A stretch of 31,013 nt of DNA. It comes from a virus. The notes under the pieces are model-generated. The model was not told the DNA's origin, did no database searches, and worked only from the letters and a program-made list of their open reading frames with translations. A program made the translations under genes and the position numbers. This document shows positions 29,894-31,013 of this stretch, piece after piece (the first letter of the stretch is position 1; every line of letters begins with the position of its first letter). The DNA is taken from IMG/VR virus record IMGVR_UViG_3300049596_000098, positions 1 to 31,013 of that record; one strand, written 5' to 3'.

Positions 29894-29953
29894 AATATTA
29901 TATTTTAATTATCCAGTAAAGATAATAAATTTATTAAACAATTAAAGTTTAAA

Positions 29954-29990
29954 CAAAAAAATAAGTCTAGACTTTTTACATCTAGACCTA
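29954..29990 (-). terminator. Terminator in the gap before the GroES-like gene
   Basis: On the minus strand AGGTCTAGA (29981-29989) pairs with TCTAGACTT (29963-29971), 9 bp with one G-T pair, then ATTTTTTTG. A TATATTTG box lies 61 bases upstream at 30051-30058. The GroES-like gene starts 61 bases below the T tract, so it needs read-through or another promoter. Confidence 0.8.
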
Positions 29991-30050
29991 CCATTGAGTA
30001 ACCAATTAAAACAAGAACCATTATTAATCGCAAAACAAATAATGATATCA

Positions 30051-30058
30051 CAAATATA
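30051..30058 (-). promoter_or_regulatory. Promoter -7 box before the gap transcript
   Basis: An exact TATATTTG on the minus strand, 5 bases after the stop at 30063. With the terminator at 29954-29990 it would give a transcript of about 90 nt without a long ORF. The -33 TTTG at usual spacing is missing. Confidence 0.45.
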
Positions 30059-30062
30059 AGTA

Positions 30063-30326
30063 TTATTCAAACACCTTATACATTCTATTAAAATTTTTTT
30101 CTGGCATCAAAGTATATTCCCCGTACCAGTCTTTTATAACATAGTCCCCCGGGGTTAATTTAATTTCACCATTATTAGTAGTAAGAAAAAAGCTATCAAA
30201 TTTTTTTCCATCATAATTAATATGTCCTGCAAAATCTTCATCCCCGGAAATCTTAATAGCACATTCCTCTGTACCATCCCATTGCATAGCCTCAACACTC
30301 TTAGGCCTTTCTCTATATAATTTCAT
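30063..30326 (-). CDS. Small phage protein of the PGDY type (87 aa)
   Basis: Starts MKLYRERPKSVEAMQWDGTE and ends LTPGDYVIKDWYGEYTLMPE plus a FNRMYKVFE tail. The YRxxPxxVEAxQW start and PGDYIIKGxxGExxxxxPxxFxxxYE end are a well-known pattern in small phage proteins of unknown function. Probably a single compact beta domain. The upstream neighbour has a related C-terminus, so the pair may have arisen by duplication. It overlaps that gene's stop by 4 nt (ATGA). Confidence 0.8.
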   Translation of the reverse strand: MKLYRERPKSVEAMQWDGTEECAIKISGDEDFAGHINYDGKKFDSFFLTTNNGEIKLTPGDYVIKDWYGEYTLMPEKNFNRMYKVFE

Positions 30327-30604
30327 ACTTCTGTATATGTTGTTTCAAATATTTCTTTTTCTACTAGCCATCTTTCACCTTGTATACCAGTACATACATA
30401 ATGTTTTCCAAACTCACCTTTAAGTTCTTGATTCTCCAATGTAGATACATAAGGTATTGTTGGTTCTGGTGCTGAAATCCCAAACTGAATATCATCTCTT
30501 CCACTTGCTAGTTCACGATATGTCCATGTGAATCCATCCTCATCACCGGGCTCAAATATCTTAGCTTTTACTGTAGCTATTTTTCTATACTCCTTCATGC
30601 TCAT
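30323..30604 (-). CDS. Small phage protein related to the PGDY type (93 aa)
   Basis: Starts MSMKEYRKIATVKAKIFEPG, then DEDGFTWTYRELASG, and ends GKHYVCTGIQGERWLVEKEI plus FETTYTEV. The end has the same spacing as its neighbour's (H/D-YV-x(4)-GE-x(6)-E-x-x-F-x-x-x-Y). I chose the ATG at 30602-30604: the frame is open to a TTG at 30619, but that TTG is part of a TATCTTTG promoter-like box. An ATG at 30598 is a further option. It is the first gene after the non-coding leader region. Confidence 0.75.
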   Translation of the reverse strand: MSMKEYRKIATVKAKIFEPGDEDGFTWTYRELASGRDDIQFGISAPEPTIPYVSTLENQELKGEFGKHYVCTGIQGERWLVEKEIFETTYTEV

Positions 30605-30616
30605 AATTTTAAAATA

Positions 30617-30624
30617 CAAAGATA
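30617..30624 (-). promoter_or_regulatory. Possible -7 box before the first late gene
   Basis: The minus strand reads TATCTTTG, a TAnnTTTG match, 13 bases before the ATG at 30604 and just below the terminator at 30630-30660. This leaves a very short leader, so it may not be the true start region. Confidence 0.38.
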
Positions 30625-30629
30625 ATAAT

Positions 30630-30660
30630 AAAAAACAAAACCTCCAGATTACTCCAGAGG
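30630..30660 (-). terminator. Terminator of the second short transcript
   Basis: On the minus strand CCTCTGGA (30653-30660) pairs with TCTGGAGG (30641-30648), 8 bp with two G-T pairs and a GTAA loop, then TTTTGTTTTTT. It is preceded by TTAGGTAAGGAAA (30661-30673). Confidence 0.8.
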
Positions 30661-30673
30661 TTTCCTTACCTAA
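30661..30673 (-). promoter_or_regulatory. AGGTAAGG element before a terminator
   Basis: The minus strand reads TTAGGTAAGGAAA directly before the terminator stem at 30630-30660, as at 28891-28900. Unknown function. Confidence 0.45.
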
Positions 30674-30705
30674 CCTAATAACGTCAATTTTAAATAATGC
30701 TACAG

Positions 30706-30713
30706 CAAATATA
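30706..30713 (-). promoter_or_regulatory. Promoter -7 box for the second short transcript
   Basis: An exact TATATTTG on the minus strand, 16 bases below the terminator at 30729-30776. The transcript to the terminator at 30630 would be about 65-75 nt and lacks an ORF. Confidence 0.45.
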
Positions 30714-30728
30714 ATAAACTATTTTAAA

Positions 30729-30776
30729 TAAAAAACCCCAGGTAGTAATTCTTGATCAGAGAAACTTTCCTGGGGG
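30729..30776 (-). terminator. Terminator of the first short transcript
   Basis: On the minus strand CCCCAGG (30769-30775) and CCTGGGG (30736-30742) form a 7-bp GC-rich stem around a 26-nt loop, followed by TTTTTTATTT. The long loop is unusual for a simple terminator. Confidence 0.7.
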
Positions 30777-30862
30777 TAGTAAAGTTATAGACATTGTCCT
30801 TTCCCTTACTGAGAAGTCCAAACCTGGGACGCTGATCTTACGGGAAGCGTGTCTGGCACATG
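30729..30862 (-). ncRNA. Candidate structured RNA or attenuator leader
   Basis: Between a TATATTTG box and a terminator lies a segment of about 130 nt with higher G+C than its surroundings. Short pairings are visible on the minus strand: GTCC...GGAC, AGACA with TGTCT, GATCAG with CTGATC. CCCAGGT (30822-30828) and CCCCAGG (30769-30775) can both pair with ACCTGGGG (30736-30743), the 3' arm of the terminator, so two exclusive folds are possible. No tRNA arm pattern and no known RNA family is recognised. Confidence 0.45.
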
Positions 30863-30865
30863 ATA

Positions 30866-30873
30866 CAAATATA
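30866..30873 (-). promoter_or_regulatory. Promoter -7 box for the first short transcript
   Basis: An exact TATATTTG on the minus strand, followed by TATCATG. It lies just upstream of the GC-richer segment and below a short ATTCC/GGAAT inverted repeat. No -33 TTTG at the standard distance. Confidence 0.48.
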
Positions 30874-30893
30874 TAACAATTCCCCGGAATACA

Positions 30894-30901
30894 CCTTACC
30901 T
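30894..30901 (-). promoter_or_regulatory. Third AGGTAAGG element
   Basis: The minus strand reads AGGTAAGG, then TGT and the small inverted repeat ATTCC/GGAAT (30879-30890) and TTGTTA. It resembles the two elements that sit before real terminators, but this hairpin is weak. Confidence 0.38.
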
Positions 30902-30924
30902 ATAATAAATAAATGCACTTATGG

Positions 30925-30970
30925 ATTTTGTACATGCAAGAGATGGAGGTGGACACATTTTGTATATGCA
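30925..30970. repeat. 14-bp direct repeat, 32-bp period
   Basis: ATTTTGTACATGCA (30925-30938) and ATTTTGTATATGCA (30957-30970) differ at one base. Their 32-bp period is about three helical turns, so a protein could bind both on the same face of the DNA. It lies upstream of the first TATATTTG. Confidence 0.6.
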
Positions 30971-31013
30971 GTAAGTTGTAGTGGGCCCTTGCTACAAAAC
31001 CCCCCGCCCCTCA

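Follow-up and report, generated by a model that had tools for sequence, protein, structure and literature searches.

In phage lambda, the late genes are headed by a late promoter, a short RNA and a terminator (the late leader, with 6S RNA, tR' and Q). Lambda Q and HK022 put let RNA polymerase pass terminators, put being an RNA that acts in cis. Phage T4 makes two small stable RNAs, C and D, of unknown role, which are encoded beside tRNAs in its tRNA cluster. The homo-oligomeric phage RNAs known to us, GOLLD and ROOL, are all giant and of unknown purpose. As described in the sections of PMC12286853 consulted here, both belong to phages and prophages and often lie close to tRNA islands. GOLLD is conserved at its 3′ part and less so at its 5′ part, has no known function, and has many members longer than 800 nt that form cage assemblies; the self-complementary centre of its one symmetric kissing loop (L21a) switches a dinucleotide from GC to CG, which is given in the same sections as support for an intermolecular kissing loop. 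ROOL is a large multi-domain cage, a homo-oligomer with kissing loops, and OLE is a large bacterial RNA forming a homodimer, in which the internal tetranucleotide of L9.3 switches among GGCC, GAUC and AGCU in support of intermolecular bridges (same sections).

The RNA described here, RNA1 or unit 1, resembles GOLLD and ROOL as a phage RNA, one with a tRNA gene directly upstream in part of its loci though not in the window, resembles GOLLD in a conserved 3′ and a less conserved 5′ part, and resembles OLE and GOLLD in a self-complementary apical loop whose centre switches, in RNA1 among GATC, GGCC, AGCT and AATT. Those three are large ornate RNAs of hundreds of nucleotides, whereas the RNA1 family measures about 130–200 nt (129–197 nt as trimmed), has another structure, forms a small unit that ends in a terminator of its own and matches none of them in Rfam. 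The likeness to T4 RNAs C and D, as small phage RNAs beside tRNAs, is one of description. Unlike in the lambda late leader, new promoter boxes follow most terminators here, and RNA1 itself is conserved and mobile. We read unit 1 as a stand-alone structured phage RNA of ~130 nt that probably dimerises through a kissing loop, with the neighbouring units 2 and 3 as separate things, and give this reading a probability of roughly 0.68.

The window, the whole 31,013 nt (31 kb) IMG/VR contig analysed, carries a late gene block on its minus strand. PHROG matches to a crAss-type terminase (TerL), a portal and a major capsid protein lie downstream of the region of interest on the same strand, so the late-gene label of the sequence-only reading holds. 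The region itself forms the upstream end of this block, and the window ends at position 31013. A near-identical contig (L002) extends past this end, and in the relatives L005, L008, L018 and L023 small frames on the other strand lie beyond it; thus, the region lies close to the turn from one arm to the other. Forty relatives, found through a neighbouring 96-aa ORF that matched nothing in PHROG or Pfam, formed the comparison set. The features discussed first are as follows.

30873-30866, minus strand: promoter −7 box P1, TATATTTG, at the site of a 5′ hairpin (P0) in full-length homologs
30731..30861, minus strand: unit 1, structured RNA (RNA1), with its ends placed by the box (5′) and the T tract (3′)
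30776-30736, minus strand: terminator hairpin T1, followed by a T tract, −17.2 kcal/mol
30713-30706, minus strand: promoter −7 box P2, TATATTTG, from the consensus match and the shuffle test
30629..30702, minus strand: unit 2, ending in the TTAGGTAAGGA-hairpin-TTTTG terminator T2
30664-30637, minus strand: terminator hairpin T2, −16.9 kcal/mol
30617..30624, minus strand: promoter −7 box after T2, TATCTTTG, directly before the next ORF
30604-30323 and 30326-30063, minus strand: two ORFs between units 2 and 3, with PHROG 419 matches
30058-30051, minus strand: promoter −7 box P3, TATATTTG, from the consensus match
29954..30047, minus strand: unit 3, a two-hairpin leader with terminator T3, preceding thymidylate synthase in relatives
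29992-29960, minus strand: terminator hairpin T3, −14.7 kcal/mol
29916..29954, minus strand: stretch with the box-like TATCTTTA, resembling by eye the thymidylate synthase 3′ end of relatives

TAnnTTTG is the −7 consensus of Bacteroidota. The sequence-only reading had placed three TATATTTG boxes here (giving their 3′ ends), each followed by a strong terminator hairpin, and all three pairs were found in place and above shuffle expectation. When the last 1100 nt of the contig were shuffled 100 times with dinucleotides preserved, terminators of −12 kcal/mol or lower occurred 0.08 times on average (maximum 1) and TATATTTG boxes 0.18 times (maximum 2), as compared with three of each observed. Weaker controls gave four matches to the looser TAnnTTTG vs a mean of 1.14 (maximum 6, 200 shuffles) and, in a simple scan for terminators over the final 5 kb, which missed T1, three terminators vs 1.3 expected (sd 1.1); sigma-70-type sites numbered 27 vs 29.5. 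Across the window, six of the nine TATATTTG occurrences lie between ORFs on the coding strand, and such DNA makes up 2120 of the 31013 bases. A box, TATCTTTG, after T2 (30624-30617) and the box-like TATCTTTA after T3 (29924-29917) had been overlooked. The proposed stacking is borne out for units 1 and 2, which are contiguous; it does not extend to unit 3, which follows ~570 nt further on, past the two ORFs. For units 1–3 taken together, relatives were not found to lack both boxes and hairpins, although unit 1 is missing from single relatives. The three units differ in kind.

RNA1 is built from three hairpin domains.

30816..30859, minus strand: domain A hairpin, GUGCCAGACACGCU-UCCCGUAAGAUC-AGCGUCCCAGGUUUGGAC, indicated by covariation and also occurring without the rest in other phages
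30778..30810, minus strand: domain B hairpin, AGUAAGG..CUUUACU, the least well supported of the three
30736..30776, minus strand: domain C, the terminator hairpin, with covarying lower and upper stems
30753..30758, minus strand: TGATCA, the palindromic hexamer of the hairpin C apical loop and proposed kissing-loop contact

Of the 50 sequences of set A2, 27 went into a covariance model, R1; sequences displaced by MAFFT around stem A were excluded, as were most that lack P0. R1 matched the window at 30731-30888 (112.5 bits, E 4.6e-30). Conserved pairing across related phages had been named as one check to make, and the results indicated strong covariation. Both-side changes were present at 14 of 32 pairs in A3, the 27-sequence set, and at 27 of 31 pairs in A6, which holds 70 sequences, one per locus (the window, 51 earlier loci and 18 R1 matches). 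Double-change cells in A6 numbered 329 vs 93.8 in shuffles, none of 500 shuffles reaching as many, and 91.7% of cells were paired vs at most 46.0% with slid partners, figures to be read with A6 having been fitted to R1, so that the fit favours R1's own pairs, and with the contigs sharing descent, so that the counts are not independent. Domain B had 77.5–79.4% paired cells in A3 and 76.4–76.6% in A6 and carries a variable extra hairpin in relatives. The upper stem of hairpin C varied as UUCU/AGAA, CUGU/ACAG, UUGU/ACAA, CUGC/GCAG and UCUC/GAGA, with about three of 34 upper stems not fully paired, and invariant internal loops stand beside the covarying domains. Full-length members have the additional 5′ hairpin P0, which the window copy lacks, having the promoter box in its place.

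In seven loci (L086, L089, L122, L130, L143, L154 and L158), a further 5′ hairpin was seen by eye just before P0, with a near-invariant loop TGATACTGTTG and a variable yet paired stem; the RNA may be longer in these phages. Two other structural candidates were rejected: a GATCAG/CTGATC pseudoknot between domains A and C, which is broken in L036, L038 and others, and a conserved short ORF, whose frame is lost in relatives (one-base deletions in the best frame in L033 and others). A Y RNA with a phage TROVE partner was likewise set aside, TROVE being found in 0 of 19 IMG/VR contigs and in one of four named phages (crAss001).

The loop centre of hairpin C was a self-complementary hexamer in all 70 A6 copies, in four sequences (TGATCA 62, TGGCCA 3, TAGCTA 3 and TAATTA 2), as well as in all 34 distinct hairpins with intact lower stems. 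Within one hairpin, no pairing is possible among the four central bases. If the outer T and A are taken as constant, a random centre would be palindromic once in 16 by our own estimate, so that three coordinated switches are unlikely to arise by chance, the switch resting on the three other sequences in eight copies since 62 of the 70 are TGATCA. A weaker control, a shuffle allowing a palindrome anywhere in the loop, gave 0.249 per loop. Given the precedent of OLE and GOLLD, this palindrome switching leads us to infer a homodimer, in which two RNA1 molecules probably join by a kissing loop at the tip of hairpin C.

The same palindrome is conserved at the DNA level, and in the window group RNA1 lies near the turn between the divergent arms, as would suit a DNA element in this divergent region, with proteins binding at its palindrome and hairpins or with an origin formed by them. 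However, G-U pairs also keep the pairing, the T tract is strand-specific (at least five T at the 3′ end in 70 of 70 unique copies), and RNA1 occurs in other contexts, after tRNA genes or, judged by eye, a lysozyme-like gene; we consider such a DNA-level role very unlikely.

In the relatives, other structured or repeated sequences were seen. A motif recurs about 20 nt before the ATG of each small leftward frame of the divergent arm (L018:1000-2100 and L023:1000-2400), reading leftward, by eye, about CCAACTCATAACTAT or CCATTTTATAACTA; it is a candidate early promoter, perhaps for a virion RNA polymerase. Upstream of the first box, L018:2201-2280 and L038:1930-2030 contain a long inverted repeat in which pairing survives base changes (GGTGC/GCACC vs GGTAC/GTACC), possibly one more structured unit.

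The spread of RNA1 was followed with a terminator-loop pattern, which matched 105 stretches of IMG/VR DNA, and with R1. The comparison used 70 unique copies, each with 170 or more upstream bases, drawn from the pattern matches and from earlier loci (a set differing from the 70 sequences of A6), after exclusion of copies cut by contig ends and of the only two bacterial matches to the loop pattern, both of which lacked the flanking RNA and were taken as chance; a 20-base pattern gave no match in bacterial genomes. R1 had a single strong match per contig (E ≤ 1.4e-29) in 35 of 39 contigs searched whole, which is no survey because 29 of the 39 had been chosen through a pattern match from the RNA; weaker matches (E 6e-5 and above) were mostly the opposite strand of the same place. 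The four contigs without a strong match were G003, where the site is cut by the contig end, G006, G010 (121 kb) and G011 (85 kb). A tRNA ends 4–8 nt upstream of RNA1 in 17 of 59 loci; in the window, neither ARAGORN nor Rfam found a tRNA or tmRNA gene, and unit 1 itself matches neither.

RNA1 was 89–97% identical in six relatives whose flanking genes are 67–81% identical at the DNA level. The copy of L072 is 94% identical, and none of six other compared parts is shared with that contig, the TerL of which has 42% identity to those of Flavobacterium elemoviruses and 63% to that of MW202828, and scores far above the TerL of other contigs against PHROG 6681. In L005, an insertion in RNA1 leaves 48 of 123 bases in one match. 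The position of RNA1 differs between lineages, some relatives having it after T2 rather than before. At the covered site it is absent in the close relatives L010, L011, L012, L014, L016, L018 and L023, and this absence, together with that of a strong match in G010 and G011, shows RNA1 to be dispensable. On these comparisons, RNA1 behaves as a mobile cassette.

A TAnnTTTG box within 60 nt after the terminator was present in 56 of the 70 unique copies, vs a shuffle mean of 8.05 (maximum 16), and a box before RNA1 in 15 of 70 vs 2.8 in shuffles, these boxes being consensus matches and not mapped transcript starts. The sequence-only reading had proposed several short terminated RNAs, and this is supported for unit 1, which has both a covarying structure and such a box past its terminator. 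It had also proposed leaders whose terminators are overcome by antitermination. Applied to RNA1, this would make it a cis-acting attenuator attached to the late transcripts, with a phage factor or RNA1 itself letting the polymerase pass the terminators. RNA1 does lie on the TerL strand, 1.4–21.5 kb upstream, in 16 of 16 contigs that contain both (G027 and G028 being apparent near duplicates), with the window as the 17th, and the host RNA polymerase is believed to transcribe the late genes of crAss-like phages (PMC8375218 and PMC10136315, in the sections consulted). Against it, the frequent box past the terminator is a trait that lambda Q-type leaders lack, the genes downstream of RNA1 differ, a search of 18 contigs for proteins with a NusG domain found none, and RNA1 is missing both in close relatives and in G010, a contig with a TerL match. 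Since boxes follow most terminators of the family as well as T1 and T2 (T3 being followed by the box-like TATCTTTA) and a NusG-domain protein was not found, antitermination lacks support as a general mechanism, and for RNA1 we judge it unlikely; a leader of this kind fits unit 3, as set out below.

RNA1 as a riboswitch for the gene behind it would agree with the layout of a structured RNA whose terminator precedes a gene. The downstream proteins, however, are many and different-looking (judged by appearance, with Pfam naming only a few), and the separate box after the terminator in most copies would give these genes a start of their own, so that we hold a riboswitch to be extremely unlikely. 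One downstream protein of 224 aa, in L097 and others, matches the C-terminal domain of arginine-tRNA-protein transferase (PF04377, 8.7e-8). In a TerL frame of 1094 aa (G038:C1:77256-80165), the match is split, with profile positions 78-550 and 552-722 lying about 1 kb apart, an intein-like insertion.

For the stand-alone RNA, the following course is envisaged. Host RNA polymerase, which we infer from the thinking on crAss-like late genes noted above, would start RNA1 at the TATATTTG box, and transcription would stop at its own terminator. Covariation shows its fold of three domains, A, B and C, least well for B, and domain C serves as both terminator and hairpin with the conserved palindromic loop. 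Two molecules would then be joined by the kissing loop suggested by covariation, and RNA1 would act in trans or as a scaffold, while the genes behind it would start from their own boxes.

Unit 2 is of a different kind. A second terminator of the T2 type lies in the window at 28896-28859, and terminators with a TAGGTAAG lead were found in 39 distinct entries among the loci compared, at two places in the window; we read unit 2 as a putative recurrent promoter-terminator separator. On another reading, the whole region would be punctuation only, with strong terminators insulating divergent and late transcripts and short RNAs as by-products. Such an arrangement recurs at another gene border of the window, where a terminator is followed by a box (25153-25109), and it remains our reading of unit 2. 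For unit 1 it leaves the covarying domains, the invariant internal loops and the switching palindrome unexplained, and as an account of the locus it seems to us quite improbable. At 28966-28807, 17194-17122 and 7501-7389, stretches resembling TATATTA..GTATATAT stand near the next ATG without a TAnnTTTG box, and in these late intergenic regions they are a possible second type of late promoter. At the other contig end (1-552, minus strand), a partial frame has, by eye, a GIY-YIG-like start, NKKYIGITSDIKRRFTQHK, and perhaps encodes a homing endonuclease.

Unit 3 has its counterpart in relatives of the L018 type, in which a box, a hairpin, a spacer and a terminator follow in the same order and lead directly into a thymidylate synthase gene (PF00303, 5e-61), its ATG following the T tract with no TAnnTTTG between. 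RNAalifold on 12 sequences gave 18 pairs, seven with changes on both sides. Because the unit leads thymidylate synthase in these relatives, the gene is missing in the window lineage and a 3′ remnant appears to follow T3, we favour reading unit 3 as an orphaned leader, probably the former leader of the lost gene.

The search was extended to known families and named phages. With Rfam 15 at gathering cut-offs, cmscan gave no match in the window and only tRNAs in 12 family loci, with no GOLLD, ROOL or OLE; by E-value, unit 1 gave six weak matches, none to those three (best ncS54, 18.6 bits against a cut-off of 43), and in sets of three and 12 further loci, any matches were confined to tRNA, tmRNA and a single weak plastid one. 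Using blastn against INPHARED and PLSDB, RNA1 found only one 24-base match (E 5), and domain A queries found three weak partial matches in one search and none in a second. R1 gave nothing convincing in crAss001 (first 100 kb), phi14:2 (first 50 kb), elemovirus 6-3D and MW202828 (~50 kb each) or 24 kb of MA9V-3, the best E of the named-phage search being 0.16. No description of RNA1 was found in the literature searched, including the consulted sections of PMC8040213, PMC8375218, PMC10136315 and PMC12286853. RNA1 is thus a family shown neither by Rfam 15 nor by the literature searched.

Domain A also occurs outside RNA1. Its inner pattern matched at least 120 IMG/VR stretches, and the terminator-loop pattern was absent from all 85 further domain A loci. 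R1 recognised 23 of the 85 as full homologs with other loops (E ≤ 4.4e-17), and the remaining 62 had a weak match or none, that is, no full model match; in some of these 62 the element is a short hairpin resembling a terminator, preceded by a box and P0, and in 24 a tRNA or tmRNA gene lies no more than 400 nt away. In five loci (L201, L210, L211, L237 and L251), tmRNA genes were seen on the same contig piece as the domain A elements. In 12 domain A loci, cmscan by E-value placed no Rfam family at the element. Among 86 distinct contexts, the sequence of the outer stem is free and its pairing is kept: the mean score was 6.91 vs 5.06 with partners swapped (maximum 5.45 of 50), a test chosen because A5 mixes two registers and contains one wrongly cut sequence, and five of the 86 contexts lacked a stem of four pairs.

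These observations lead to a wider reading, which we advance tentatively and at slightly less than even odds: crAss-like and related phages would encode a new class of small self-dimerising RNAs, in which domain A (GCA/UGC closing UACCRUAAGAWC) would be a mobile module used in several phage RNAs, some by tRNA or tmRNA genes, and dimerising phage RNAs near tRNAs would be a general device instead of one confined to giants such as GOLLD and ROOL. Domain A is also a handle for locating many more such RNAs. If confirmed, RNA1 would represent a structured RNA missing from Rfam 15, found in Crassvirales and related phages, and an RNA of 130–200 nt with the signature of GOLLD and ROOL that is small enough for gels, mutants and crystals, so that the role of homo-oligomeric phage RNAs would become directly testable.
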